A DNA stretch of 64,000 bases. It comes from a bacterium HR40. Its GTDB lineage: Bacteria > Pseudomonadota > Alphaproteobacteria > Geminicoccales > Geminicoccaceae. The first letter of the stretch is position 1; each line of letters begins with the position of its first letter. The DNA lies in assembly GCA_002898275.1 (NCBI GenBank), contig BEIQ01000005.1, positions 62,001 to 126,000 of the forward strand, read 5' to 3'. Of this stretch, positions 503 through 40,482 are shown piece by piece. The notes under the pieces were generated by a model that was not told the DNA's origin, did no database searches, and was given only the letters and a program-made list of their open reading frames with translations. A program made the position numbers and the translations under genes.

Positions 503-531
503 TTTACAGGGTTTACGGAGGTCCGTATTCT
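503..531 (+). promoter_or_regulatory. Sigma70-like promoter of the RHH-repA operon
   Basis: TTTACA at 503-508, a 17-bp spacer and TATTCT at 526-531 give a good housekeeping promoter. Transcription would start near 538, about 22 nt before the likely RHH start codon. A 9-bp-spaced direct repeat (TTTAC at 503 and 512) overlaps the -35 element and could be a repressor site. The assignment rests on sequence match only. Confidence 0.55.
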
Positions 532-559
532 ACCTGGGGTCGGAGAATGGCTTTGCGTC

Positions 560-790
560 TTGGATAGGGGCGATCGCAAGCTCACGGTGACCCTGCCGGC
601 TGCCGTGCTGCGGCAGCTGCGCGCTCGCACCGTGGCCCGCGAGACGACGATCCGCGCCCTTCTGCTCGAGGCCCTGGCCGCCGCCGGCTATGCGGTGCCG
701 GCCGCGGAGATCCGCGATCGCCGCCGGCCGCCGACGGATTCGGTACATCGTTCACGGCGTCGCACCCGCGCGGGGACGGAGGGAGCATGA
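560..790 (+). CDS. Small ribbon-helix-helix DNA-binding protein coupled to repA
   Basis: A 76-aa basic protein. Its first part (KLTVTLP strand, then two helices ending LLLEALAAAGY) fits the ribbon-helix-helix fold of CopG/Arc-type repressors. The C-terminal tail is arginine-rich. The reading frame ends in an ATGA overlap with repA, so translation is coupled and a copy-control or autorepressor role is likely (inference). One origin iteron (739-755) lies inside its 3' end. The start is uncertain: TTG at 560 is the first in-frame start after the predicted transcription start, with a CGGAG 14 nt upstream. No database family is claimed. Confidence 0.55.
   Translation: MDRGDRKLTVTLPAAVLRQLRARTVARETTIRALLLEALAAAGYAVPAAEIRDRRRPPTDSVHRSRRRTRAGTEGA
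739..755 (+). repeat. Isolated iteron upstream of repA
   Basis: One copy of the 17-bp iteron TTCGGTACATCGTTCAC, identical to those after repA and in the same orientation. It lies in the end of the RHH gene, 32 bp before the repA start. RepA binding here would be well placed for autorepression or origin handcuffing (inference). Confidence 0.85.
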
Positions 791-1680
791 CCGACAAACA
801 AGTCGATCTCTTCCTCGACAGCCTCATCAACGCGCCCTTCAAGGATGATCGGGCGCTCATGGAATTCCCGTTCTTCTCGCTGCAGAAGGCACCGCGCATG
901 AAGCCGCTCGTCTACGACGACGGCAAGGTGAAGATCGAGGTGCGTCCGGGGGAGCGCGGGATCGCGACCATCTGGGACAAGGACGTGCTGATCTACATCG
1001 CTTCGATCATCAACGATCGCATCGAGCGCGGTTTGCCGGTGGACAAGACGGTGCGCTTCAGCGCCCACAATTTCCTCAAGGTCACCGGTCGCGGCACCGG
1101 CAAACGGGCCTACGAATTGTTCCTCGATGCCATGTTCCGGTTGCGGTCGACCACCATCGTGACCACCATCGAGGCGGGGGAGATCAAAGAGCGGCGCGGA
1201 TTCGGCTGGATCGAGACGTTCCGGGTGATCGAGCGCAGCACGAAGAACGGCAAAAAGATCATGGGAGCCTGCGAGATCACCCTCAACGACTGGATGTTCC
1301 GGGCGATCGTCAAGGACCGGCGGGTACTCACCATCAACCAGGGCTATTTCGCCCTCTCGATGGGTCTCAAGCGTCGCCTCTACGAGCTCGCCCGCAAGCA
1401 CTGCGGCCACCAGGAGAAATGGGTGATCACCCTGCCCAAGCTCATCGAGAAGTGCGGCTCGGTGCTGGAGCCCCGCTTCTTCAAGCCGCAGCTGCGCAGG
1501 GTGGTGGAGGACGACGATCTCCCCGACTACCACATCGCCATGAGCTTCGACCCGCAGGACCGCGAGGAGATCGAGGAGAGCGGCTTCGACTCGCGCCGCT
1601 GGGCGACCAACGAGCGCATCCTCGTGAGTTTCTGGCCGCGCGGCCAACGGCCACCGGAGATCCTCGCCCCACTCGGCTGA
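787..1680 (+). CDS. repA: RPA-type replication initiator protein
   Basis: A 297-aa initiator of the RPA (replication protein A) family used by many alphaproteobacterial plasmids and chromids. It would bind the iterons on its 3' side (1688-2072) and open the adjacent AT-rich element. Visible family features are the MEFPFFSLQK start region, the KVTGRGTGKRAYELF segment and the YFALSMGLKRRLYELARKH helix typical of winged-helix initiators. The start is ATG 787 in an ATGA overlap with the RHH gene. Expression is probably set by the promoter at 503-531 and by translational coupling. The protein is full length with no frameshift. Identification is from sequence resemblance to the RPA family. Confidence 0.9.
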   Translation: MTDKQVDLFLDSLINAPFKDDRALMEFPFFSLQKAPRMKPLVYDDGKVKIEVRPGERGIATIWDKDVLIYIASIINDRIERGLPVDKTVRFSAHNFLKVTGRGTGKRAYELFLDAMFRLRSTTIVTTIEAGEIKERRGFGWIETFRVIERSTKNGKKIMGACEITLNDWMFRAIVKDRRVLTINQGYFALSMGLKRRLYELARKHCGHQEKWVITLPKLIEKCGSVLEPRFFKPQLRRVVEDDDLPDYHIAMSFDPQDREEIEESGFDSRRWATNERILVSFWPRGQRPPEILAPLG

Positions 1681-1687
1681 CCCGCCG

Positions 1688-2072
1688 TTCGGTACATCGT
1701 TCACACCCCCAGACCCCCGCTCCTCGCCCCAGCAGGACCTCCCGCTGCCTCGCATTCGGTACATCGTTCACGAGCGGCAGTCCCGAGACCGCGGGGTTCG
1801 GTACATCGTTCACGCGGCGGTCGCGGCGGCGGTTGCCGTTGCTCATTCGGTACATCGTTCACAGGTCCCGCCCGCTGTCGGACGCCACCCCTCCCCTACC
1901 CTCTGCCGACCGCTACGGCTGTCGGGCGGCGATGCCGGCTTCGGTACATCGTTCACGATCGCGGCGGCTGGCGGGAGGGATGCCGGCTTCGGTACATCGT
2001 TCACCAAAGCTCGGTACATCGTTCACGCTTCCATTCGGTACATCGTTCACCGAAATTCGGTACATCGTTCAC
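1688..2072 (+). repeat. Origin iteron array, nine copies
   Basis: Nine direct copies of TTCGGTACATCGTTCAC at 1688, 1755, 1797, 1846, 1940, 1988, 2010, 2034 and 2056. The copy at 2010 has C instead of the first T. All point the same way. The last four are spaced 22-24 bp, about two helical turns, while the first five are spaced irregularly at 42-94 bp. This is the expected binding array for the RepA initiator and marks the replication origin. Confidence 0.92.
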
Positions 2073-2082
2073 GATCTTGCCG

Positions 2083-2190
2083 CTTAACTCATTGAAAATA
2101 AAGGCAAATCGCCACCTCTAACTCTCTAACGGATTCTCTATTAACTCTCTAACGGCGGCGCCAGCCCCACCGCCTGTGGATAACTCCCAC
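2083..2190. other. AT-rich unwinding element with DnaA box (replication origin)
   Basis: Directly after the last iteron comes an AT-rich stretch (about 2083-2150) in otherwise GC-rich DNA. It contains two copies of the 14-mer TAACTCTCTAACGG at 2119-2132 and 2142-2155, 23 bp apart. A perfect DnaA box TTATCCACA lies on the minus strand at 2175-2183. Iterons, AT-rich direct repeats and a DnaA box in this order match the layout of iteron-type origins, so this is the probable duplex unwinding element. Confidence 0.78.
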
Positions 2191-2206
2191 CGCCGGTCGG
2201 CTGGCG

Positions 2207-3103
2207 CTAGCGGCGATCCTCGAGGGCTCGGCGAAGAAAAGCGTGGGTAGAGGCGTCGATCGCCGGTTCCGTTCCGCCCCAATGACGGAAGCCGGGAACC
2301 GCCTGACCGATGAGCATACCGAGACCGTCGACCACGGGATGACCCCGCAGACGGGCGCGAACGAGAAGGTCCGTGGCGAGCGGCACATAGACGATGTCGG
2401 CGACGATGGCGGAGAGCGGCAGAGGGTCGAGGGGCAGATCGAGCGGGGGCTTGCCTTGCATGCCGAGGCTCGTGGCATTGACGAGAAGACCTGCGCCCCG
2501 AAGGGCTTCGGCCCGATCCGGCCAAGGGACGACCGTGGGGCGATGCGCGAAGTGGCGGGACAGCCAATCGGCGAGAGCGTGAGCGCGTTCCGCTGTACGG
2601 TTGACGAGGCGCAGTTCCTCCACTCCGGCGTCGAGCAACGCCGCAGCGATGGCACGGGCGGCACCGCCGGCGCCGAGCAGCACCGCCGGCGCGGCATCGG
2701 GTCGGAAAGCCGGACAGGTCGCGCGGAGATGGAGGAGGAAGCCGCTGCCATCGGTGTTGCAGCCGAGGAGGCTGCCATCGGCGTGGACGAGAACCGTGTT
2801 GACGGCGCCGATGCGGGCGGCTGCCGGATCGTGCCGATCGACGAGAGCGAAGGCCGCTTCCTTGTGCGGGAGGGTGATGTTGAAGCCGAGAAAGCCGAGG
2901 CGCGGCAACAGGCGGAGGGTAGCGGCGAGGTCTCCGGCCGGGACCCGCAGGGCGAGGTAGAGGCCGTCGATGCGATGGCGAGCGAACCAGTGATTGTGGA
3001 GGCGGGGAGAGAGGGAGTGGGCGACGGGATCGCCGAGGAGAGCGGCGAGGCGTGCAGCGGCGGTGAACCACATGGCAGTCTCTGGCTGTTGGAACATGAT
3101 CAT
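2207..3103 (-). CDS. aroE: Shikimate dehydrogenase
   Basis: NADP-dependent reduction of 3-dehydroshikimate to shikimate in the chorismate pathway. The 298-aa product has the substrate-binding GDPVAHSLSPRLHN motif, the catalytic lysine in NITLPHK (K81) and the aspartate in NTDG (D118). It also has the nucleotide-binding GAGGAARA loop, the NRT motif, and NATSLGM near residue 210. The start is ambiguous: ATGs at 3103, 3097 and 3073 all lack a strong ribosome binding site, and 3073 would give 288 aa, closer to usual length. It lies between the origin and the partition genes. A quinate/shikimate paralogue cannot be excluded without phylogeny. Confidence 0.9.
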   Translation of the reverse strand: MIMFQQPETAMWFTAAARLAALLGDPVAHSLSPRLHNHWFARHRIDGLYLALRVPAGDLAATLRLLPRLGFLGFNITLPHKEAAFALVDRHDPAAARIGAVNTVLVHADGSLLGCNTDGSGFLLHLRATCPAFRPDAAPAVLLGAGGAARAIAAALLDAGVEELRLVNRTAERAHALADWLSRHFAHRPTVVPWPDRAEALRGAGLLVNATSLGMQGKPPLDLPLDPLPLSAIVADIVYVPLATDLLVRARLRGHPVVDGLGMLIGQAVPGFRHWGGTEPAIDASTHAFLRRALEDRR

Positions 3104-3144
3104 GGCACACGCGTAGGACAAGGGACGCGTAGACGGGTCGCCAC

Positions 3145-3825
3145 CTACCAAGCTCGCGGTTCGCCCTGAAACGACAGGAAACGGCCACTGTCGGCCGGGG
3201 TGAGGCGATCGATCACCGCGAGCATGCCAGCCACGCTCTCCTCCGGGGCGAGAGGCGCGGCCGGTCCGCCCATGTCGGTGCGCACCCATCCGGGATCGAG
3301 GAGCACGCAGACGATCCCCTCTCGCGCCACCTCGATGGCGAGATTGCGCCAAGCCATGTTGAGCGCGGCCTTGCTGCAGCGATAAGCCCACAGACCGCCG
3401 CTGCGATTGTCGGCGAGCGAGGCGAGGGCGCTGGAGATGGCGATCATCCGCCGCGCCCGACTGGCTGCGACCTGCCGGCGCAGAGCGGCAGCGAGCTGCA
3501 GGGGGGCGAGGCAATTCACGTGCAAGGCCTCGAACCAGCCCGGAATGTCGAGGGCCTCCGGGCGATCGCGCGGGCCGGTGACGGCGGCATTGGCCACGAG
3601 ATGGTCGATGGGTTCGCAGGCCAAAGCCTCGGCGAGCTGCCGGGTGGCGGTGGGATCGCGCGCGTCCCAGCGATGGAGGACGACATCGCCGGGGATGGCG
3701 CGCAGGAGGTGCGCCTGCTCCGGGCGCCGGCAGCAGGCATGGACGCGAAAACCGCGCTCGGCATAGGCGCGGGCGAAGGCGAGGCCGAGGCCGCGATTGG
3801 CGCCGGTGACGAGGGCGGTCGGCAC
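3145..3825 (-). CDS. Short-chain dehydrogenase/reductase (C-factor/sniffer-like)
   Basis: A 226-aa SDR. The NAD(P)-binding TGANRGLG motif is at residues 7-14, then NAAV and the catalytic Ser...YxxxK set (ISSA and Y-R-C-S-K). The ending DPGWVRTDMGG resembles the C-factor/sniffer carbonyl reductase group. The start is the GTG at 3825, 7 nt after GGAGG; the longer frame to 3954 lacks support. Substrate unknown. It is transcribed away from parA across a palindromic region (3994-4007) that may control both. It is followed by aroE in the same direction, about 40 nt away. Confidence 0.85.
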   Translation of the reverse strand: MPTALVTGANRGLGLAFARAYAERGFRVHACCRRPEQAHLLRAIPGDVVLHRWDARDPTATRQLAEALACEPIDHLVANAAVTGPRDRPEALDIPGWFEALHVNCLAPLQLAAALRRQVAASRARRMIAISSALASLADNRSGGLWAYRCSKAALNMAWRNLAIEVAREGIVCVLLDPGWVRTDMGGPAAPLAPEESVAGMLAVIDRLTPADSGRFLSFQGEPRAW

Positions 3826-3992
3826 GGGGGATCCTCCGCGAGGGTCCGTCGCGAGTGGTAGCCGAGGCCGAGCGAGGCGCAAACCCACTCGCCCGTGCCG
3901 TCCGAAAGAGGGCAGGAGGGACCGCAGGGTCGTGTCGGCCGCGGCGACGCGCAACTGCGGACGGAGGAGCGGACGGCGACCAGCGTGACCCC

Positions 3993-4038
3993 ATTATACG
4001 CGTATAAAACGATACGGTAGAAAAAGGATTGCCGTATC
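3993..4038. promoter_or_regulatory. Palindrome and inverted repeat upstream of parA: operator or centromere candidate
   Basis: A perfect 14-bp palindrome TTATACGCGTATAA (3994-4007) overlaps two divergent -10-like hexamers: TATAAT on the minus strand (3998-3993, toward the SDR) and TATAAA on the plus strand (4003-4008, toward parA). Immediately downstream, GATACGG (4011-4017) and CCGTATC (4032-4038) form a second inverted repeat. A protein bound here would block both promoters. In type Ib partition systems the RHH partner binds such a site, which also serves as the centromere. That role is inferred. Confidence 0.5.
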
Positions 4039-4111
4039 CCCGGCATTCATGCTACAGCCTCGGCGCCGGCGGAGGGAGCCGCCGGCGCCCTCCCTGGGGC
4101 CGGAGCCGGCG

Positions 4112-4774
4112 ATGCGCGTGATCACCTTCGTCACCCAGAAGGGTGGCAGCGGCAAAACCACCCTCTGTACCAATCTCGCCGTGGTCGCCGAGCGTCACGG
4201 CGTTCGCACCCTCCTCCTCGACCTCGACCCGCAGGCCAGTGCCGAGGCCTGGTACCAACTCCGCGACGCCCCGACCCCCAAACTCGTCCGTCTCGGTGCC
4301 GCCGACCTGCCGCGCGCGCTCGAGCTCGCCCGCGGTCAGGGTTTCGATTGGGTGCTCATCGACACTCCGGGCCGCGACGAGCCCGCTGTCGCGGCCGCGG
4401 TGCGCGCCGCCGATTTCTGCCTCGTCCCCTGTCGTCCCACCCCGCCCGATCTCACGGCCCAACCGGCCACCGTCGCCACCATCCGTCGCCTCGACCGTCC
4501 CTTCGCTTTCATCCTCAATCAAACGCCGCCGCGCGGTTTTCGCATCCGCGAGGCGCAAGCCGGTCTCGCCGTGCTCGGCCCCGTCGCGACGGTCACCGTG
4601 GTCGCCCGCAGTGTCTTCCAGGATGCCCACGGCGTCGGTCTCGGGGTGCTCGAATACGAGCCGGACGGCAAGGCTGCCGCCGACATCCTCGCCCTCTGGC
4701 AATGGGTCGTCCGTCGTCTGGAGAAGCTCGCCGATGAGCCGCAAGCGCACTTCGCTCGAGGCCCTGCTGCGTGA
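4112..4774 (+). CDS. parA: ParA-family partition ATPase
   Basis: A 220-aa ATPase that would position replicon copies before division. It carries the deviant Walker A motif KGGSGKTT (residues 10-17), Walker A' LLLDLDPQAS, and a Walker B-like VLIDTPG. There is no N-terminal HTH domain, so it is the short type Ib class that works with a small RHH partner. The start is ATG 4112 with GGAG 6-7 nt upstream. The next gene, an RHH protein, overlaps its 3' end by 41 bp, indicating coupled expression. Likely autoregulated through the palindromic region at 3993-4038. Confidence 0.9.
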   Translation: MRVITFVTQKGGSGKTTLCTNLAVVAERHGVRTLLLDLDPQASAEAWYQLRDAPTPKLVRLGAADLPRALELARGQGFDWVLIDTPGRDEPAVAAAVRAADFCLVPCRPTPPDLTAQPATVATIRRLDRPFAFILNQTPPRGFRIREAQAGLAVLGPVATVTVVARSVFQDAHGVGLGVLEYEPDGKAAADILALWQWVVRRLEKLADEPQAHFARGPAA

Positions 4775-5003
4775 CAGCGCCGAGCCGGCGCCGCCGCTTG
4801 TTCTCCCCGCTCCGCGGCCTGGTCGCCGGCCAGGCGTGCGCCAGCAGACCGTCTATCTGCCCATCCCCGTCTACGAGCAGCTGCGGCGTCTCGCCTTCGA
4901 GGAGAGGGTGAAGATGCACAGCCTGCTCATGGAGGGGCTGGATCGGGTGTTCCGCGACCGTGGGCTGCCGTCGATCGGCGAACTGCGCGCCCGCGCCGAC
5001 TAG
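4734..5003 (+). CDS. RHH centromere-binding partner of ParA
   Basis: An 89-aa protein with a basic, proline-rich N-terminal half. A C-terminal ribbon-helix-helix-like core follows: a QTVYLP strand at about 38-43, then helices spanning PVYEQLRRLAFEERV and KMHSLLMEGLDRVFRDRG. It starts inside parA in another frame, at ATG 4734. Its size, fold and position match the ParB/ParG/ParR-type adaptor that binds the centromere and stimulates the ATPase. That function is inferred from context. No similarity to large HTH-type ParB is seen. Confidence 0.72.
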   Translation: MSRKRTSLEALLRDSAEPAPPLVLPAPRPGRRPGVRQQTVYLPIPVYEQLRRLAFEERVKMHSLLMEGLDRVFRDRGLPSIGELRARAD

Positions 5004-5037: not shown

Positions 5038-5125
5038 TGGCGGATGGGGTGGGATTCGAACCCACGGGAGGTTGCCCCCCGGCGGTTTTCAAGACCGCTG
5101 CCTTAAACCCCTCGGCCACCCATCC
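5038..5125 (-). tRNA. tRNA-Ser(UGA)
   Basis: On the minus strand, acceptor arm GGATGGG (5125-5119) pairs with CCCATCC, discriminator G, with CCA encoded at 5040-5038. The D arm begins GCCGAG, the anticodon loop reads CTTGAAA with anticodon TGA, and the long variable arm (CCGGGGGGCAACCTCCC) is typical of class II serine tRNA. The T arm contains GGGTTCGAATCCC. It reads UCA and wobble UCN codons. Confidence 0.95.
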
Positions 5126-5220: not shown

Positions 5221-5296
5221 TGGTGGAGCCGAAGGGATTCGAACCCTCGACCCCCTGCTTGCAAAGCAGGTGCTCTCCCAGCTGAGCTACGGCCCC
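5221..5296 (-). tRNA. tRNA-Ala(UGC)
   Basis: A complete 76-nt tRNA on the minus strand. GGGGCCG pairs with CGGCTCC, discriminator A, CCA encoded at 5223-5221. It has the D arm TAGCTCAGCTGGGAGAGC, an anticodon loop with TGC, and the T arm GGGTTCGAATCCC. It is isolated from any rRNA operon, where this tRNA is often found. Confidence 0.96.
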
Positions 5297-5464: not shown

Positions 5465-6115
5465 GTGACCCGCAGCCGCAGCGCCTCGTCCCAGCGCTGG
5501 CTTCGCCGCCAGCAGACCGACCCTTGGGTGGCTCGCGCCCGCGCCGAGGGCTTCCGCGCTCGCTCCGTCTACAAGCTGGCGGAGATCGACCACCGCTTCC
5601 AAGTGCTGCGACGCGGCCTCGCCGTGCTCGATCTCGGAGCGGCGCCCGGGAGTTGGAGCCAATATGCCGCCCGGCGCGGCTGCCGGGTGGTGGCGGTGGA
5701 CCGCCTGCCGATGGAGCCGATCCCCGGCGTCGAGATCGTCGCCGGCGACTTCCTCGAGGAGGAGACGCAGGCGCGGATCCGCGCCTGCTTCCCTGCCGGA
5801 GTCGATGTGATCTTGAGCGATCTCGCACCCGAGACCACCGGCCGACGCACCGTCGATCGCCTGCGCTCGGAGGCCGCTGGCGAGGAGATCCTCGCTTTCG
5901 CCCGCACCGTCCTCAAGCCCGGAGGCCATCTCCTCCTCAAGCTCCTCAAAGGTGCGGAGGCGGAGATCGCCGCCCGCGCCCGGCCGCTCTTTGCCAAAAT
6001 CCGCTTCCTCCGTCCCGCGGCGACCCGCAAAGAGTCCTCCGAGACCTATCTCTTGGCGACGGGCTTCCGCTCCTCTTCCGCCGCCGGCGAATCTGGCGGA
6101 GCGGGGAAGGACTAG
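5465..6115 (+). CDS. rlmE: 23S rRNA (uridine-2'-O-)-methyltransferase RlmE (FtsJ)
   Basis: A SAM-dependent 2'-O-methyltransferase for 23S rRNA (U2552 in E. coli numbering). In the 216-aa product, the RlmE start region [20 protein letters not shown] is followed by the SAM motif [12 protein letters not shown]. Then come DFLE, the catalytic-region SDLAPETTG and [12 protein letters not shown]. The K-D-K-E tetrad can be placed at SVYKLAE, LSDLAP, LLLKLL and SSETYL. I chose GTG 5465, preceded by GAGG, because upstream frame to 5310 has no conserved residues. It overlaps the convergent dtd gene through a shared CTAG. Confidence 0.93.
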
Positions 6116-6576
6116 CCGGCGTGCAGCTTGCCGAGGACCCGCGAGTCGACCCAGATGGTCACCGGTCCGTCGTTGACGAGATGCACTCGCATACGGGCCG
6201 CGAAGCGGCCGGTCGCCACCGACAATCCTTGCCGGGCCAGCTCGGCGCAGAACAGTCGGTAAAGACACTCGGCGCGAGCGGGTGGTGCCGCCTGGGCGAA
6301 ATCCGGCCGGTTGCCGCGGCGGATGTCGGCGGCGAGGGTGAACTGGCTGACCACCAGCGCCGCCCCGCCCACATCCGCGAGCGAGAGGTTCATGCGGCCT
6401 GTGGCATCCTCGAAGATCCGCAGGCGTGCCACCTTGCCAGCGAGCCGCGGGACGATCTCCTCCCGATCCTCGGCTTCCGCACAGAAAAAGACGAGAAGGC
6501 CGCGGCCGATGGCACCCACGAGGGTGCCTTCCACCTCGACCTTGGCCTCGAGCACCCGCTGCAGCAAGAGTCTCAT
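6112..6576 (-). CDS. dtd: D-aminoacyl-tRNA deacylase
   Basis: Hydrolyses D-amino acids wrongly attached to tRNA, acting in the cytoplasm as a dimer. The 154-aa product has the MRLLLQRV start, the SQFTL motif (residues 77-81) that houses the active site, and the cross-dimer NDGPVT motif (Gly-cisPro) near residue 135. The length matches the family (about 145-155 aa). ATG 6576 has GGGAG 8 nt upstream. The stop codon shares a CTAG with the convergent rlmE stop, giving a 4-bp tail-to-tail overlap. Confidence 0.95.
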
Positions 6577-7035
6577 CTCCAAGCTCCCGACCCGTACCGG
6601 AAGCGCGCGGTGCGGCGATGACGCACACCCCCTGGCGCCCCCCGAGAACGCGCTTGCGAGCGGCTGCCCGCCGAGGAGGACAACAGGATCGGGCCTCCTC
6701 TCCGGTCTCGCTCGGTGATCGAGGCAGCGCCCCCCGAGACCCCTCCGCCCTTTCGGAGCGAACCCTCGACATCGCCGCCGCCCCGGCACGTCTTGCCTCG
6801 CGGACGGGGCCTCGAGGGGAGGTCCGTTCGAAGACTCGGGCTCGTGGGAGAGGAAGCGAGAAGGGGCGGGCAGTTGACAGGGAGTGGACCGCCGCCTATG
6901 GCGGCGCCATGGTGCGATCGGGGCTGCGACGATCCCTTCCAGTTCGACGACGAGGCGGCTGAGACCGTCCCGTCGCTGCCGCGTGTCCGCTCCCGGACGG
7001 TGGCTCTCCCGCATCCCGCTCGCGAGATCGCACCC
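6577..7035. other. Intergenic region, no gene recognised
   Basis: About 460 bp between divergent dtd and the GNAT gene. Open frames cross it on both strands, but none shows family motifs or a convincing ribosome binding site. A short GC dyad (GCCGCC-TAT-GGCGGC, near 6890-6905) is visible. The GNAT frame is open upstream to 6898, so a longer N-terminus is possible but unsupported by homology. Confidence 0.5.
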
Positions 7036-11960: not shown

Positions 11961-12033
11961 GGCATCCCTCCCGGTCGGTGATGACGGCTCCCGCTTGTGG
12001 CAGATCCGGTGGAGAGCGTCGAGGGGCACCCAA

Positions 12034-14568
12034 TCATTGCTCATCGACGAGGCGGAGCTCATCGGTTTTCGGATTCCACTGCGCAAGCTGCCAATCCCCG
12101 TGACCCATGTCGATCGCTCGCGCGGCGATCCGCCGCGTTCCTCCGTCCATCTCGATCTCGTAACCCGGCTCCCGAATACCATATTCCGGCAGGTCGATGA
12201 TGCAGGGTCTGCGTACCGTCACCTCATGCAGCAGACCATTGGGGTCGCGATAGAGGACATGACTTCCGGGTGCATAGACTTCGATCCAATCCCCGTCAGC
12301 TCCGATGGGCCGCTCTCCAGCCAGCAGGCCGCCACGACCGGGCGAAAGATTAGCATACCAAGTCTGCAACGGCTCGGCAAAGGGTGAGCGAGCAGCCTTG
12401 AGGGCCGCGAGCAACTCGGGGAAGCGGGTATAGATCGGCTCGGTGAGCCGCAGACCACCGACGGTGGTGTCATAGACGGCGATAGCTCGGGAGAGAGTTT
12501 GCCTTCGCCCGATGCGTTGGATGGCGATGCGGCTTGTGGTGATTTCGATATCTGCCGGGGAAATGCCAAAAATATGTGGAATGATTTCTGATAAAAAATC
12601 TCTTACAGAGACTCTAGCGTTTCTATCGAACCAATTTTCATCGACATTGAAGATGACACCGGTCGTGCGCATGTCGCGAGTTTTCGTTTTGAACGAAGGA
12701 TGTTCGTACTCCATTTCTTTGTACTTTTTCGCTTCTTTCCCATAATATATACCGATAACTCTCTCGATAACGAGAAGATTAGCTTCGACAATAAATCCAT
12801 TTTCTGAACTCAGAGCGTGCCCATTAATGATCCCTCCATTCCTCTCATCTGTCATGTCGAGATTGACGTAGATTTCGAGCATAGGTTGCGTCGGAATCGC
12901 CTTTGACATCTTGGCAACGAAAATCTCGCCCTGTTGGATTCCGCTTTTCCATTGCTCCACCCGATAGGGTTGACCGAGATAGAGGTAACAGGCTCCGGGA
13001 TAGGCCTCGCGAATGGCCTGCTTGAGATCCATGTTACCGAGTTTCCTGTTTTCCAAGCGTTCGACAATCTGGAGCTGGGTCTCGACATTGGCCCGCAGGC
13101 CGTAGGTGAGGTGTGGGTCGTCGCCACCGAGACGGTGCACGGAGTCGAACTCCGCCGGTCTACCGGCCCCTGGGAGCGCGTACTGATAGATATCGGCAAA
13201 ACCTTCCGGCCAATCTTGCGATGGGAGTTTTCGGTTTTCCTTGTCTTCGAGTTCGCGGACGAGGCAACGCGCGTGCGCATATTGCACGAAGCGATTGTGT
13301 AGGTAGATGGTCGTAGGTTCTGGGGGCAGCTCATAGTAGGTTTTGAGGTCCAGCCCTGTCTTGGCGAACTGATCGAATGGGGCGAGAATGCAAAAACAAC
13401 CCCGCGATTGTCGACCGATTCGGCCGAGCCGCTGGTGGAAGGCACGCCGCGACCAGGGAAGGCCGAGATTGAGGCCGAGCTCGAGCTCGTGAATGTCGAG
13501 ACCGAGCTCGAGGGCCGAAGTGCTCACCACACCCCGCAACCGGCCCGACTGCAGTGCCCTCAGGATCTCCTCCCGGTCCTTCTCCTCGAGCCCGGCGCGG
13601 TAGGGGAACACCGAACCCTCGATCGATCGCCAGTGAGCGGCGGTGCGACTGACCTTCTCCACTCCCTGGCGGGAATCGGCAAAGGCGATGAAACGTGTGT
13701 CCGGCAGAGCCTCGAGAATGGCTGCGAGAAGTTTGCCGAAGGCGTCGTAGGCATTATTCCCGCGGGAATCGAAACTGATGTGCAAGATGTCGCGACCGGC
13801 ATGTGGTGCACCATTTTTTGACTCGTCGATCACTGTGAAATCGTGCCCGGTGAGCCTGCGCATGTGGTCGCGAGCACCGACCATGGTGGCACTGGCAGCG
13901 ATGAAACGGGGCTCCGCAATCCTGCGCGACGCCAGTTTAGCGCGCAGAGAGAGCAAGCGCCGCAAGAGAAAGGCGGTGTTGGTACCAAAGAGGGCATCGT
14001 AGACATGCGCCTCATCGAGTCCGATGAGCGCGATATGAGCGAGGAACTCCTTTTGCACCATTCCCGAAGCCTGGCGCAGCAGCCAGTGGTGCGCGATATC
14101 GGGGGTGAGCAGGGCGATGCGGGCGTGGGCGAGCAGGGCTTCGCGTTGTGTCGCCGCGATGCTGCCATCGATGCGGCAGAGGATCTCCTCCGGCAGGCCG
14201 AAGGAGCGGATCGCCTCCCGCCACTTGTTTTCCTGATCTTGCGAGAGGGCCTTGAGAGGATAGAAGATGAGCACCCGTGCCTGATTGTCGTCGAGCACGG
14301 TGCGCAGGGCCGCGAGGATGAAAACGAGCGATTTGCCCGAAGCCGTGGCGGTCGAGAGGACGACATGCGCACCACGCTCGAGATAGGCGAGGGCCTCCGT
14401 CTGGTGCACCCACAGTTGACCGGCGAAGCGATCGACGAGCCGGGCGACCGGATGAGAGGCCCATGAAGGCGGTAGCGGCGCGAAGCGGGCAGGCCGAGGT
14501 TCTAGCTCGAGGCGATCGATGACCTCGTAGCGCAAATCCTTCAGCAGTGCATGGAGCTGCTCTTGCAT
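12034..14568 (-). CDS. DEAD/DEAH-box superfamily 2 helicase (MrfA/Hrq1-like, no DUF1998)
   Basis: An 844-aa SF2 helicase. Walker A is TASGKS (K79), Walker B is LDEAHVYD (D185-H188), motif III is SATM, and the C-terminal RecA lobe has [11 protein letters not shown] and QRLGRIGRQ. The arrangement resembles the MrfA/YprA and Hrq1 families of DNA-repair helicases. The C-terminal four-cysteine DUF1998 domain of those proteins is missing, as there is no CxxC cluster. The middle region, about 12500-13050, is visibly more AT-rich than its neighbours, suggesting transfer or recombination. ATG 14568 follows GGGAGGAAGG. A DNA-repair or defence role is inference only. Confidence 0.85.
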
Positions 14569-14615
14569 GTCCGGCCTTCCTCCCTGAAAAGCTTGTCGCA
14601 TTTTCGGCCATTCTG

Positions 14616-17336: not shown

Positions 17337-18334
17337 CTCCTGGCGAGCGCCCGATCGAAGCTCCCCGGCACCGCGGGCAGGGCGAAGAGCGCATAGCCCG
17401 CTTCGATAGGGCGTTCCGCCTCGGCCAGGGCGGCAGCGTCGTGGATGCGGCAGAGACCGGCGGGTTCGAGCCGGAAGACGCGCAGGCCGCGAGCGAGGGC
17501 CGCGGTGGTCGCGGCGAAGGCGTGCTCCCCGCCATGGTCCTCGAACAGCAATGCCACTTCGCCGAGCGCGGCGAAGGGGGTATGGCGGATGATCTCGGCC
17601 TCCATGCCCTCGACATCGAGCTTGACGAGCAGGGGCACGCCCGGCCGGGCGAAATCGCGGACGAGGGAATCGAGGGTGCAGGCCTCGACCTCGACCACGG
17701 CCTCTGGCTCTGCTGCCCATGCCTTGCTGCCGAGGACGTGTCGACCCCAGTGGCCACCGGAAGCGGTGAAGGTGACCGAACGGCGCTCCCGCCCCACCAC
17801 CGCACAGGCACGGATGGCGAAGCGACCGGCATTGGCGGCCCGGGTGCGCTCGAGCAGCGGCAAGACCTCGGGAGCGGCCTCGACCGCGAGCACCGGATGG
17901 TTGCCGAGTCCAGGGCCGCTCACGAGCGCACTCCAGTAGCCGAAATTGGCGCCGCAGTCGAGGAAGCGGAAGGGGAGGTGGCGCAGTCGCCACAGAAGGG
18001 CATAGAGGGCCGGCTCGTAGACGGCCCCGCACAGCAGCCGCTTGCCCCAATAGCGGTCGTAACAGGGAAAGAGGAAGCGGCTGCCGTCCTCGAAAATCGC
18101 AGCAAGCAGCGTGCTGTGGGCACCGGGCAAGCGCCGCAGCAGCCGCCGCAACCGGCCGGCACCGCGGCCGGCGCGCTCGAGGCGGGCCCACAGCAGGGCG
18201 AGGTGGCGGTGGAGATCGCCGCCACAGGCGGTTTCGATTCGCCAAGAAGGCCGGGCAGGAGGGAGCGGCACCCAGTCGGTCACCGGGATCGCGGCCGCCG
18301 CGGTCGATCCGCAGGGCGCCTGGTCGTCGCTCAT
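17333..18334 (-). CDS. FkbM-family methyltransferase
   Basis: A 333-aa SAM-dependent methyltransferase. The SAM motif is FLDCGANFGYWS, then VLAVEAAPE, and a C-terminal VKLDVEGMEAEII typical of FkbM proteins, which O-methylate sugars and polyketides. ATG 18334 overlaps the upstream sulfotransferase stop as ATGA, so the pair is coupled. The N-terminal 110 residues are arginine-rich and not conserved. Together with the adjacent sulfotransferases, a role in decorating a surface glycan is likely. Confidence 0.85.
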   Translation of the reverse strand: MSDDQAPCGSTAAAAIPVTDWVPLPPARPSWRIETACGGDLHRHLALLWARLERAGRGAGRLRRLLRRLPGAHSTLLAAIFEDGSRFLFPCYDRYWGKRLLCGAVYEPALYALLWRLRHLPFRFLDCGANFGYWSALVSGPGLGNHPVLAVEAAPEVLPLLERTRAANAGRFAIRACAVVGRERRSVTFTASGGHWGRHVLGSKAWAAEPEAVVEVEACTLDSLVRDFARPGVPLLVKLDVEGMEAEIIRHTPFAALGEVALLFEDHGGEHAFAATTAALARGLRVFRLEPAGLCRIHDAAALAEAERPIEAGYALFALPAVPGSFDRALARS

Positions 18335-30813: not shown

Positions 30814-30888
30814 TGGAGCGGGAGACGGGATTCGAACCCGCGACCCCAACCTTGGCAAGGTTGTGCTCTACCCCTGAGCTACTCCCGC
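30814..30888 (-). tRNA. tRNA-Gly(GCC)
   Basis: Minus strand: GCGGGAG (30888-30882) pairs with CTCCCGC, discriminator T, CCA encoded at 30816-30814. The D arm has TAGCTCAGGGGTAGAGC, the anticodon loop TTGCCAA gives GCC, and the T arm is CGGGTTCGAATCCCG. It decodes GGC and GGU. Confidence 0.96.
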
Positions 30889-37279: not shown

Positions 37280-39054
37280 ACCACCGCGCACACCCGATTG
37301 CGGCCCTCGTGCTTTGCCCGATAGAGGGCGCGATCGGCAGCCGCGAGACAGGCCTCGAGATCCTCCCGTCCGGCCTCCGGCACGGCGATGCCGACGCTGA
37401 TGGTGACCGCGAGCCGGTGCTCCCCGTAGCGGATGTCGGCGGTGGCAATGGCCGTGCGCAGTCGTTCGGCGACGGCAAGCGCCTCCTCTCGATCGGTATC
37501 GATGAGCAGCACCGCGAATTCCTCGCCGCCCAGACGCGCCACGAGATCGTGCGACCGCAGGGTGCTCCGGCAGATGTCGGCGACCCGGCGCAGGACCAGA
37601 TCGCCGGCGGCATGGCCGTGGCTATCGTTGATCTGTTTGAAATGATCGAGATCGAACAGCAGCAAGGCCACCCGTTGGTCGTGGCGACGGGCGCGCTCCA
37701 GCAGTCGGCGGCCGCGGTCGAAGAACTGCCGGCGGTTGGCGAGCTCGGTGAGCTCGTCGATGGTGGCGAGCCGGCGGAGGTCGCGTTCGATCTGCTTGAG
37801 GTGGGTGACCTCGGTCTGCAGCAGCACGGTGTGGCCATCCGGTAGCCGGTGCTCGCGCACCACATAGTGGCGCTCGCCCACTGCGAGATCGAAGGGTGTG
37901 CCATCGGCACGCGCGTGCAGGGCGAGCCGAGCGGCGAGTTCGCGCGCCCGCGCCTCGGGATCGAGTCCGGGCCGGTGGCGGTCGAGGTGGCTCCGGGCGA
38001 GCTCGGCGAAGCACCGGCCTTCGAGCGCCTGGGGCGTGGTCCCCTCGAGGGCGGCGAAGGCATGGTTGCAGAGGCGGAGCCGGTCATCGGGGCCGAAGAG
38101 GGCGAAGCCGTCGGAGAGCACGTCGGTGGCCGCCCGCAACAGGGCATGGGCGGCCTCGGCGGCGTGGCGGGCGCGAGCGAAGGCCTGGGCGAGGCTGCGG
38201 AGATTCTCTTCGGTGCGCTTGAGGGCGGTGATGTCGGTGCGACAGAGCACGATCGATCCGTCGCGAAGCCGCCGCTCCTGCACCCAGAAACAGAGATCGC
38301 CGCCCCGGACCTCGCGCGGGATACCCGAGGCCTCGCGGTGCCGCTGCAGGCGCTCGGCGAGCCAGCGGGCGAAAGCCGTCTCGTCGAGATGGGCGAGACC
38401 GAAGCGGTGGCGGAACGCCGGAAGCCGCTGCAACTCCTCGAAACTGCGGCCAGCGAGGGCTTCTGGTTCCTCGCCGTAGAGCGCGGCAAAGGCGCGATTG
38501 CAGAGGACGAGTCGGTCCTCGGGATCGAACAGGGCAAAGCCGTCGAACAGCACTTCGGTGGCCGTCTGCAGCAGGGCGCGGTCGGCCTCGGCCTGACGGA
38601 TCGCCTCCTCGAGGCGGCGTTCGTTCTCGATCCGCTCGGTGATGTCCTGCAGGATGCCGAAATAGCCTGCCACCTCGCCCCGTTCGTCGAGCCGGCACAG
38701 GCCCCGGGTTTCGACATGGCGGATGCTGCCATCGGGTCGTATCACCCGCGCCCGATGGTCGAAGTCGCGCTTGGCCGCGATCGCCTCGGCCCAAGCCCGC
38801 CGGCGCGCCTCGCGGTCCTCGGGATGGAAGATGGCGAGCCGGGATTCGGCATCGAGGCGGAAGGCATCGGGTTCGAGCCCGGCGATCCGCCAGATCTCCT
38901 CCGACCACCAGAAGCGGCCCGTGGTGAAGTCGTAGTCCCAAAAACCGATGCCGGCGATGCGGCCGGCGAGCTCGAGCTGACGGATCCGGCGCGCGAGGAC
39001 GGCCGCCGGCGATTCCGACGGCTCGGATGGCGGAGAGGGGTGGGGCCCGGACAA
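37222..39054 (-). CDS. Multi-PAS diguanylate cyclase (GGDEF)
   Basis: A ~610-aa cytoplasmic sensor. Three PAS-type domains (about 25-145, with a PAC segment RPDGSIRHVETRG; 165-290; 310-420) are followed by a C-terminal GGDEF domain. The active site is RLGGEEFAVLL, with an intact inhibitory site RSHD five residues upstream, so it should make cyclic-di-GMP and be product-inhibited. No EAL domain is present. The start is uncertain: no ATG lies in frame, and TTG 39054 is the best candidate. Cyclic-di-GMP commonly controls exopolysaccharide, which fits the downstream locus. Confidence 0.87.
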   Translation of the reverse strand: MSGPHPSPPSEPSESPAAVLARRIRQLELAGRIAGIGFWDYDFTTGRFWWSEEIWRIAGLEPDAFRLDAESRLAIFHPEDREARRRAWAEAIAAKRDFDHRARVIRPDGSIRHVETRGLCRLDERGEVAGYFGILQDITERIENERRLEEAIRQAEADRALLQTATEVLFDGFALFDPEDRLVLCNRAFAALYGEEPEALAGRSFEELQRLPAFRHRFGLAHLDETAFARWLAERLQRHREASGIPREVRGGDLCFWVQERRLRDGSIVLCRTDITALKRTEENLRSLAQAFARARHAAEAAHALLRAATDVLSDGFALFGPDDRLRLCNHAFAALEGTTPQALEGRCFAELARSHLDRHRPGLDPEARARELAARLALHARADGTPFDLAVGERHYVVREHRLPDGHTVLLQTEVTHLKQIERDLRRLATIDELTELANRRQFFDRGRRLLERARRHDQRVALLLFDLDHFKQINDSHGHAAGDLVLRRVADICRSTLRSHDLVARLGGEEFAVLLIDTDREEALAVAERLRTAIATADIRYGEHRLAVTISVGIAVPEAGREDLEACLAAADRALYRAKHEGRNRVCAVVHEGSAGGGSGPSRHERRR

Positions 39055-39225
39055 GGCGCGACCCGAAGGCTGGCGGTTCCTGCAACCTCGGGTAGATAGT
39101 CGGGCCAGGCCTTCCCGCCAGACGGATCCCTGCTCCGGCTTCGGGATTCGCCAACATGCCGTCCCCGCAAGCTTGCCGAAGCCGGAGGCTTCTGGAATAT
39201 GGCCGCTGCTGGGAGAGAGGCAGGG

Positions 39226-40482
39226 ATGGCTGCGGATCCGGGGCTTTTGCGCAACGCCTTCGCCTTCGTGCTCGCCGGAGGCCGCGGCTCGCGGCTCATG
39301 GAGCTCACCGCGAGACGGGCCAAGCCGGCGGTCTACTTTGGGGGCAAGGCGCGGATCATCGATTTCGCCCTTTCGAATGCCTGGAATTCCGGCATCCGGC
39401 GCATCGGCGTCGCCACCCAATACAAGGCGCACAGCCTGATTCGCCACCTGCAGCGGGCTTGGAGCTTCCTGCGACCCGAGCGCAACGAAACCTTCGACAT
39501 CCTGCCGGCGAGCCAGCGGGTCTCGGAGGAGCTCTGGTACCGGGGCACGGCCGATGCCGTCTACCAGAACATCGACATCCTCGAGAGCTACGGCGTCGAG
39601 CACATCGTGGTGCTGGCCGGTGACCATGTCTACAAGATGGACTATGGGCGTATGCTCGCAGACCATGTCGCCCGCGGCGCCGACGTCACCGTGGGTTGCG
39701 TCGAGGTACCGCGCAGCGAGGCGAGCGCATTTGGGGTCATGCGGGTAGACGCCGCCGATCGCATCGTCGAATTTCTCGAAAAGCCGCCCGAGCCGCCCGC
39801 TCTGCCGGACCGCCCGGAGCGTGCCCTCGCCAGCATGGGGATCTATGTCTTCGACGCCGCCTTTCTCTTCGACCTGCTGCGCCGCGACGCCGAGGATCCC
39901 CATTCCCGGCACGACTTCGGGCACGACATCGTGCCCTATGTCGTCCGTCATGGCACGGCGATCGCCCATCGCTTCGAGACCTCCTGCGTCAAGGCGGAGA
40001 GCGAGGCGGAGGCCTATTGGCGCGACGTCGGCACGATCGACGCCTATTTCGAGGCCAACATCGATCTCACCCGGGTGGTGCCGGCCCTCGACCTCTATGA
40101 CACCGGCTGGCCGATCTGGACCTATGCCGAGCTCACGCCGCCCGCCAAGTTCGTGCACGACGAGGAAGGACGGCGGGGGCTCGGCATCAGCTCGCTCGTC
40201 TGCGGCGGCTGCATCGTCTCCGGCGCCGAGATCCGCCGCTCCCTGCTCTTTACCGGGGTGCACGTGCATTCCTACGCCCGGCTCGAGGAGGCGGTGGTGC
40301 TGCCCTATTGCGACATCGGCCGCGGCGCCCGCCTGAGGAGGGTGGTGATCGATCACGGCGTGCGGGTTCCCGCTGGGCTCGTGGTCGGCGAGGATCCGGA
40401 AGCGGACGCGCGCCGGTTCCGACGGACCGAGAAGGGGGTGTGCCTCATCACCCAGGAGATGGTCGATCGGCTCAGCTCATGA
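39226..40482 (+). CDS. glgC: Glucose-1-phosphate adenylyltransferase
   Basis: Makes ADP-glucose from ATP and glucose-1-phosphate, the committed step of bacterial glycogen synthesis. The 418-aa protein has the [13 protein letters not shown] nucleotide motif, [44 protein letters not shown], a glucose-phosphate site VEFLEKP and the C-terminal beta-helix. ATG 39226 follows GAGAGG; the ATG at 39199 adds nine unconserved residues. It is followed 85 bp later by glgA. glgB, glgX and glgP are not in the window. Confidence 0.95.

Follow-up and report, generated by a model that had tools for sequence, protein, structure and literature searches.

Chromids and iteron-type origins

Chromids are replicons that combine plasmid-type replication and partition systems with a chromosome-like composition (GC within 1 point) and core genes (PMC12456017). 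According to a 2018 review, chromids with iteron origins occur in beta- and gammaproteobacteria and repABC chromids only in alphaproteobacteria, in which iteron origins are restricted to small plasmids; iteron chromids were argued to be SeqA-dependent and unable to provide the tight control that Alphaproteobacteria need (PMC6090056).

The window analysed here is a stretch of 64,000 bp (G000:C5:62001-126000) from contig C5 of a draft genome of the Geminicoccaceae (Alphaproteobacteria), comprising 2,892,134 bp in 8 contigs. It is interpreted, with a probability of about 0.9, as part of a chromid, namely an independent, circular and probably essential secondary replicon of ~188,472 bp. The C5 replicon contradicts the placement of iteron chromids outside the Alphaproteobacteria (PMC6090056), and large RPA plasmids of other Alphaproteobacteria, ranging from 84 to 908 kb, fit badly with the restriction of such origins to small plasmids in the same review. 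A search confined to the open-access literature, and thus not covering subscription papers, yielded no description of a chromid in the Geminicoccaceae.

Several described replicons share some of the features of C5. Chromosome 2 of Vibrio cholerae (RctB/ori2) likewise carries core genes and has its initiator gene beside direct iterons and an AT-rich stretch (PMC6090056). However, C5 encodes RPA (PF10134) instead of RctB, resides in an alphaproteobacterial host, and measures 188 kb rather than ~1 Mb. The alphaproteobacterial chromids of the repABC and DnaA-like types, such as Paracoccus aminophilus pAMI5, also reach hundreds of kb and have chromosome-like GC and housekeeping genes; pAMI5 is essential, and neither it nor pAMI6 carries tRNA genes (PMC3925955). 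The replication module of C5 differs from both types, since its origin region holds RPA, iterons and a ParA-RHH pair in place of a repABC module. The Rep_3 plasmids of Aureimonas and Persicobacteraceae are, like C5, plasmid-type replicons that have long been retained as the only carriers of translation RNA genes, but they carry rRNA operons at high copy number with a Rep_3 initiator (PMC10645730), whereas C5 has no rRNA and encodes RPA and a partition module. Finally, tRNA-Arg and engA of Sinorhizobium meliloti pSymB are essential (diCenzo 2013, as cited in PMC6090056). As far as that citation describes it, pSymB resembles C5 in that an essential tRNA formerly on the chromosome now resides on a secondary replicon, and differs in having one such tRNA on 1.7 Mb, unlike the five non-redundant tRNAs and the iteron origin on the 188 kb of C5. 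The replication module of pSymB is of the repABC type.

Relatives of RPA are present in 1,162 plasmid records, the best of them being mostly named replication initiator protein A. The nearest plasmid initiators outside the family belong to RPA plasmids of Acetobacteraceae/Rhodospirillales, with 61-63% identity to the C5 protein; such plasmids are found in Magnetospirillum sp. XM-1 (167 kb) and Komagataeibacter (190-336 kb). These replicons are recorded as plasmids, unlike C5, and the likeness rests on the initiator.

Circularity and composition of the replicon

Contig C5 is 188,571 bp long, and its first 99 bases are identical to its last 99. Exactly 99 bp are also common to the contig-end pairs C1/C4 and C1/C7, so that 99 bp is most likely the overlap length of the assembler. 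Self-overlap is confined to C5; within the genome the 99-mer is limited to its two ends and is not shared with the end of any other contig. Across the end-to-end join, an ORF of the O-antigen ligase type stays intact. On this assembly-overlap evidence, C5 is an independent circular replicon of ~188,472 bp. The only dnaA gene of the genome lies on C1, and no rRNA genes were found on C5 in searches that included Rfam. The initial annotation had offered two readings, a chromid or a chromosome that uses or carries an iteron origin, and had noted that a location of the window within a chromosome with its own canonical oriC would speak against this; the closed circle and the position of dnaA, together with the single-copy tRNA-Ser(UGA) and the weak skew switch described below, support the chromid.

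The draft state of the assembly, with its 8 contigs, and the presence of tRNAs and core genes typical of chromosomes would also be compatible with C5 being a chromosomal segment containing an integrated RPA plasmid, the apparent circle then being a repeat artefact; in one relative, G014, the RPA gene is located ~30 kb from its iterons. The exclusive occurrence of the 99-mer at the C5 ends, the ORF spanning the join, and the fact that the orthologous replicon is a separate contig or circle in relatives make such an integration very unlikely.

The GC content of C5 is 68.76%, against 68.53% in a 420-kb chromosomal sample, which places the replicon within 1 point of the chromosome, as in chromids. 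The dinucleotide distance between C5 and the chromosome is 0.036, and 20-kb windows of C5 lie somewhat further out than chromosomal windows. This slight compositional separation would be expected if C5 had come from another organism and been misbinned, which is conceivable should the genome represent a metagenome bin. However, the GC difference is 0.23 points, the genome, scored as 100% complete, would lose tRNA-Phe and others without C5, and RPA and DnaA place the organism with the same relatives; misbinning is therefore scarcely credible, and C5 is regarded as a chromid of this organism. Within the window, GC falls to ~57% at 12000-14600, over a predicted helicase-like gene that may be a recent acquisition.

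The initial annotation had named a skew switch near 2.1 kb as support for active use of the origin, and a GC-skew switch is present in its vicinity: the skew is weak but ordered, with the best antipodal origin at 59.1 kb of C5, compared with 64.1 kb for the iterons, and the detrended maximum (155.2 kb) lies close to the antipode (158.3 kb; block permutation, p=0.0012). Genes on C5 were called with a simple home-made model, and functions beyond the Pfam-scanned genes were mostly read by eye. Co-orientation of these genes was rejected as origin evidence, as the 92 co-oriented genes among 151 are equalled by 17% of rotations, which is not significant.

The replication origin

The origin region consists of the following elements, in window coordinates:

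560-790, + strand: small RHH-like ORF, 76 aa, read from the sequence and sharing 4 bp (ATGA) with the RPA start
739-755, + strand: iteron 1, inside the small RHH-like ORF, 47 bp upstream of the RPA start
787-1680, + strand: RPA, replication initiator protein A, 297 aa (PF10134, E=2e-73)
1688-2072, + strand: nine further iterons, the final four spaced 22/24/22 bp
about 2073-2153, + strand: AT-rich candidate unwinding element with 13-mers at 2118-2130 and 2141-2153
2175-2183, - strand: perfect DnaA box TGTGGATAA (TTATCCACA), one of only two on C5

The initiator, ten iterons, AT-rich element and DnaA box named in the initial annotation are all borne out. The iteron TCGGTACATCGTTCAC is present in ten exact copies, all on the + strand; the 2.89 Mb of the genome contain no further copy, even at one mismatch, and a reversed control pattern gave zero matches. 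The cognate direct repeats thus adjoin the initiator gene, as in iteron origins, and are conserved together with RPA. The two 13-mers of the AT-rich stretch are CTAACTCTCTAAC and TTAACTCTCTAAC, and the AT content of the stretch is within the top 0.1% of the 80-mers of C5. Iteron 1, located upstream of the RPA gene, is a candidate autoregulatory operator. The small ORF in which it lies gave no match in a Pfam scan of 587-790, and a similar small ORF was read from the sequence upstream of RPA in G014. A sequence search for a solved structure of an RPA relative returned none.

Judging from the families involved, RPA would bind the directly repeated iterons and open the adjoining AT-rich 13-mers, with DnaA at the single box helping, upon which replication would start. 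Copy number may be limited by the upstream iteron and by iteron pairing.

Control of the origin through GANTC (CcrM) sites was considered and rejected for this genome, in which the origin contains 1 site versus 1.1 expected and no RAMA-domain CcrM was found. GANTC sites are enriched at the origins of four relatives (G015, G011, G018 and G008), and in G015 and G011 they often overlap the iteron edges.

Partition genes and origin-proximal neighbours

Beyond the DnaA box, the window continues with the following genes:

2207-3103, - strand: aroE, shikimate dehydrogenase (PF08501, E=8e-26), the gene adjoining the origin
3145-3825, - strand: short-chain dehydrogenase (PF00106), a passenger
4112-4774, + strand: ParA ATPase, 220 aa, without N-terminal HTH, type Ib-like (PF13614/PF01656)
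4734-5003, + strand: RHH protein, 89 aa, candidate centromere-binding partner of ParA (PF20605, 31.6 bits)
5465-6115, + strand: rlmE (FtsJ) (PF01728, E=8e-45)
6112-6576, - strand: dtd, D-aminoacyl-tRNA deacylase (PF02580, E=6e-53)

Pfam matches confirmed the ParA-RHH pair as well as rlmE and dtd, all of which had been read near the origin in the initial annotation; aroE had been left unnamed. The short ParA lacking the N-terminal HTH and the overlapping small RHH protein downstream correspond to the type Ib (ParA-RHH) arrangement, and the two proteins may segregate the replicon copies. In both G014 and G011 the RPA contig carries a ParA with 72% identity, and the RHH gene is conserved beside it. 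A palindrome upstream of ParA, TTATACGCGTATAA, was discarded as a centromere, being conserved in neither G014 nor G011. The short-chain dehydrogenase gene also lies beside aroE in G015. With RPA, iterons, ParA and the RHH protein, C5 possesses the plasmid-type replication and partition genes that characterise chromids.

tRNA and core genes of C5

Three tRNA genes are located in the window:

5038-5125, - strand: tRNA-Ser(UGA), single-copy in the assembly, found by both ARAGORN and Rfam
5221-5296, - strand: tRNA-Ala(UGC), found by ARAGORN and Rfam, copy number uncertain
30814-30888, - strand: tRNA-Gly(GCC), the only copy in the assembly

The first two, recognised from the outset, were thus recovered by both programs, and a genome-wide tRNA search answered the question of whether tRNA-Ser(UGA) is single-copy in the affirmative. 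A further candidate, tRNA-Ser(CGA) at 18141-18235, was dropped, as it was predicted by ARAGORN only, without support from Rfam, and a clear Ser(CGA) lies on C2. According to the genome-wide search, Phe(GAA), Gly(GCC), Ser(GCT), Ser(TGA), Leu(TAA), Lys(CTT) and Ala(TGC) are encoded on C5 only. Ile and Ala tRNAs usually sit in the rRNA operon spacer, which is missing from the assembly and makes the copy number of Ala(TGC) uncertain. With standard decoding the Phe, Gly(GCC) and Ser(GCT) tRNAs are irreplaceable, while UCA codons need Ser(TGA) and UUA codons need Leu(TAA).

The only folK gene of the genome is also found on C5, along with folP, cysN and cysD. The aroE gene on C5 is the canonical copy, a weaker aroE-like paralogue being located on C3.

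The initiator of C5 belongs to the plasmid family described above, much of the cargo looks, as read by eye, to be of polysaccharide, glycogen and sulfotransferase type, and the Geminicoccus version of the replicon has no tRNAs. An ordinary, dispensable large plasmid that had picked up spare core genes could have these properties. However, C5 is the only source of five non-redundant tRNAs and of folK, so that its loss should be lethal, and the replicon is vertically inherited with aroE; dispensability is thus most improbable. The single-copy genes suggest instead that the C5 chromid is essential.

Conservation in the Geminicoccaceae

RPA is 79-91% identical in Marinimicrococcus, Arboricoccus, Geminicoccus and related MAGs, and the layout of the origin is conserved in ten Geminicoccaceae genomes. 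Every relative with iterons adjoining RPA has kept one iteron upstream of the gene and several downstream, and the spacing of the terminal iterons is near 22/24/22 bp in most of them. Two TTAACTCTCTAAC-like 13-mers following the iterons are visible in the ten genomes compared. The distance between the last iteron and the DnaA box is identical in four genomes, namely the present one, G015, G020 and L059. In G014 (contig C22) RPA is found at 6653, ~30 kb from the iteron cluster (37941-39673); the iterons still adjoin aroE, and a chemotaxis-receptor-like gene occupies the place of RPA.

Although the relatives are mostly represented by fragmented assemblies, two of them define the replicon as a unit. 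In Marinimicrococcus it is a contig of 141,304 bp whose ends overlap by 45 bp, with an ORF running across the join, and in G018, a genome of five contigs, it is a 128.7-kb contig beside a 5.42-Mb chromosome.

The pairwise distances of RPA and DnaA are correlated (Mantel r=0.76, p=1e-4) and both trees contain the same main groups, as expected for a chromid inherited vertically in the clade; RPA is the more conserved protein, with a mean identity of 81% versus 68% for DnaA. The aroE gene resides on the RPA contig in seven genomes, the remaining RPA genomes with a located aroE being fragmented assemblies. Judging from these comparisons, the replicon is ancestral to many Geminicoccaceae genera, with aroE aboard.

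Two assemblies scored as 99-100% complete, G005 (a single contig of 3.8 Mb) and G001 (in 40 contigs), are each without RPA, canonical aroE and folK, a joint absence that looks like loss of the chromid during binning. Their completeness scores suggest that binning can lose an essential replicon unnoticed.

Acquisition of core genes, and a second initiator in one genus

The tRNA-Phe gene is chromosomal in G018, G003 and G005, and in G014 it is found on a 350-kb contig without RPA; its location on C5 is therefore derived and was gained later. No tRNA genes are present on the RPA contigs of G018, G011, G015, G026, G021 and G008, one is present on that of G014, and the RPA contig of Arboricoccus (G013:C12, 323 kb) carries six, including Ser(UGA). 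The tRNAs other than Phe probably also joined the replicon in the present lineage. The folK gene accompanies RPA on the same contig in the present genome, G014 and G015; in G018 it is chromosomal, and in G003 aroE and folK are both on a 4.97-Mb contig. Thus tRNA-Phe, aroE and folK are core genes of C5 that are chromosomal in other species, as is characteristic of chromid cargo.

Two genomes of another genus, g6, have no RPA. Their aroE, cysND, folK and folP genes are found on contigs measuring 66,001 and 66,242 bp, each a circular permutation of the other, and genes for RepA_C, ParA and ParB are located a few kb from aroE (G023:C54, stretch L295 9934-13407; G016:C54). Genes of the folate pathway and probably of the tetrahydromethanopterin pathway are located on the 66-kb circle as well. 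The occurrence of the shared core cargo on a RepA_C circle indicates that this cargo has met a second plasmid initiator, which may reflect either initiator exchange or cargo transfer.

Taken together, it is quite probable that an old RPA iteron chromid is common to the Geminicoccaceae, that its core cargo is carried by a RepA_C replicon in one genus, and that in the present lineage it has become the sole home of several essential tRNAs. The family represents a graded series of gene movement to a plasmid-type replicon, in which aroE has moved widely, folK in three genera and tRNA-Phe in one. Its chromid, a conserved alphaproteobacterial replicon of the iteron type whose compact origin is comparable in ten genomes, makes once-per-cell-cycle control of such a replicon directly testable.
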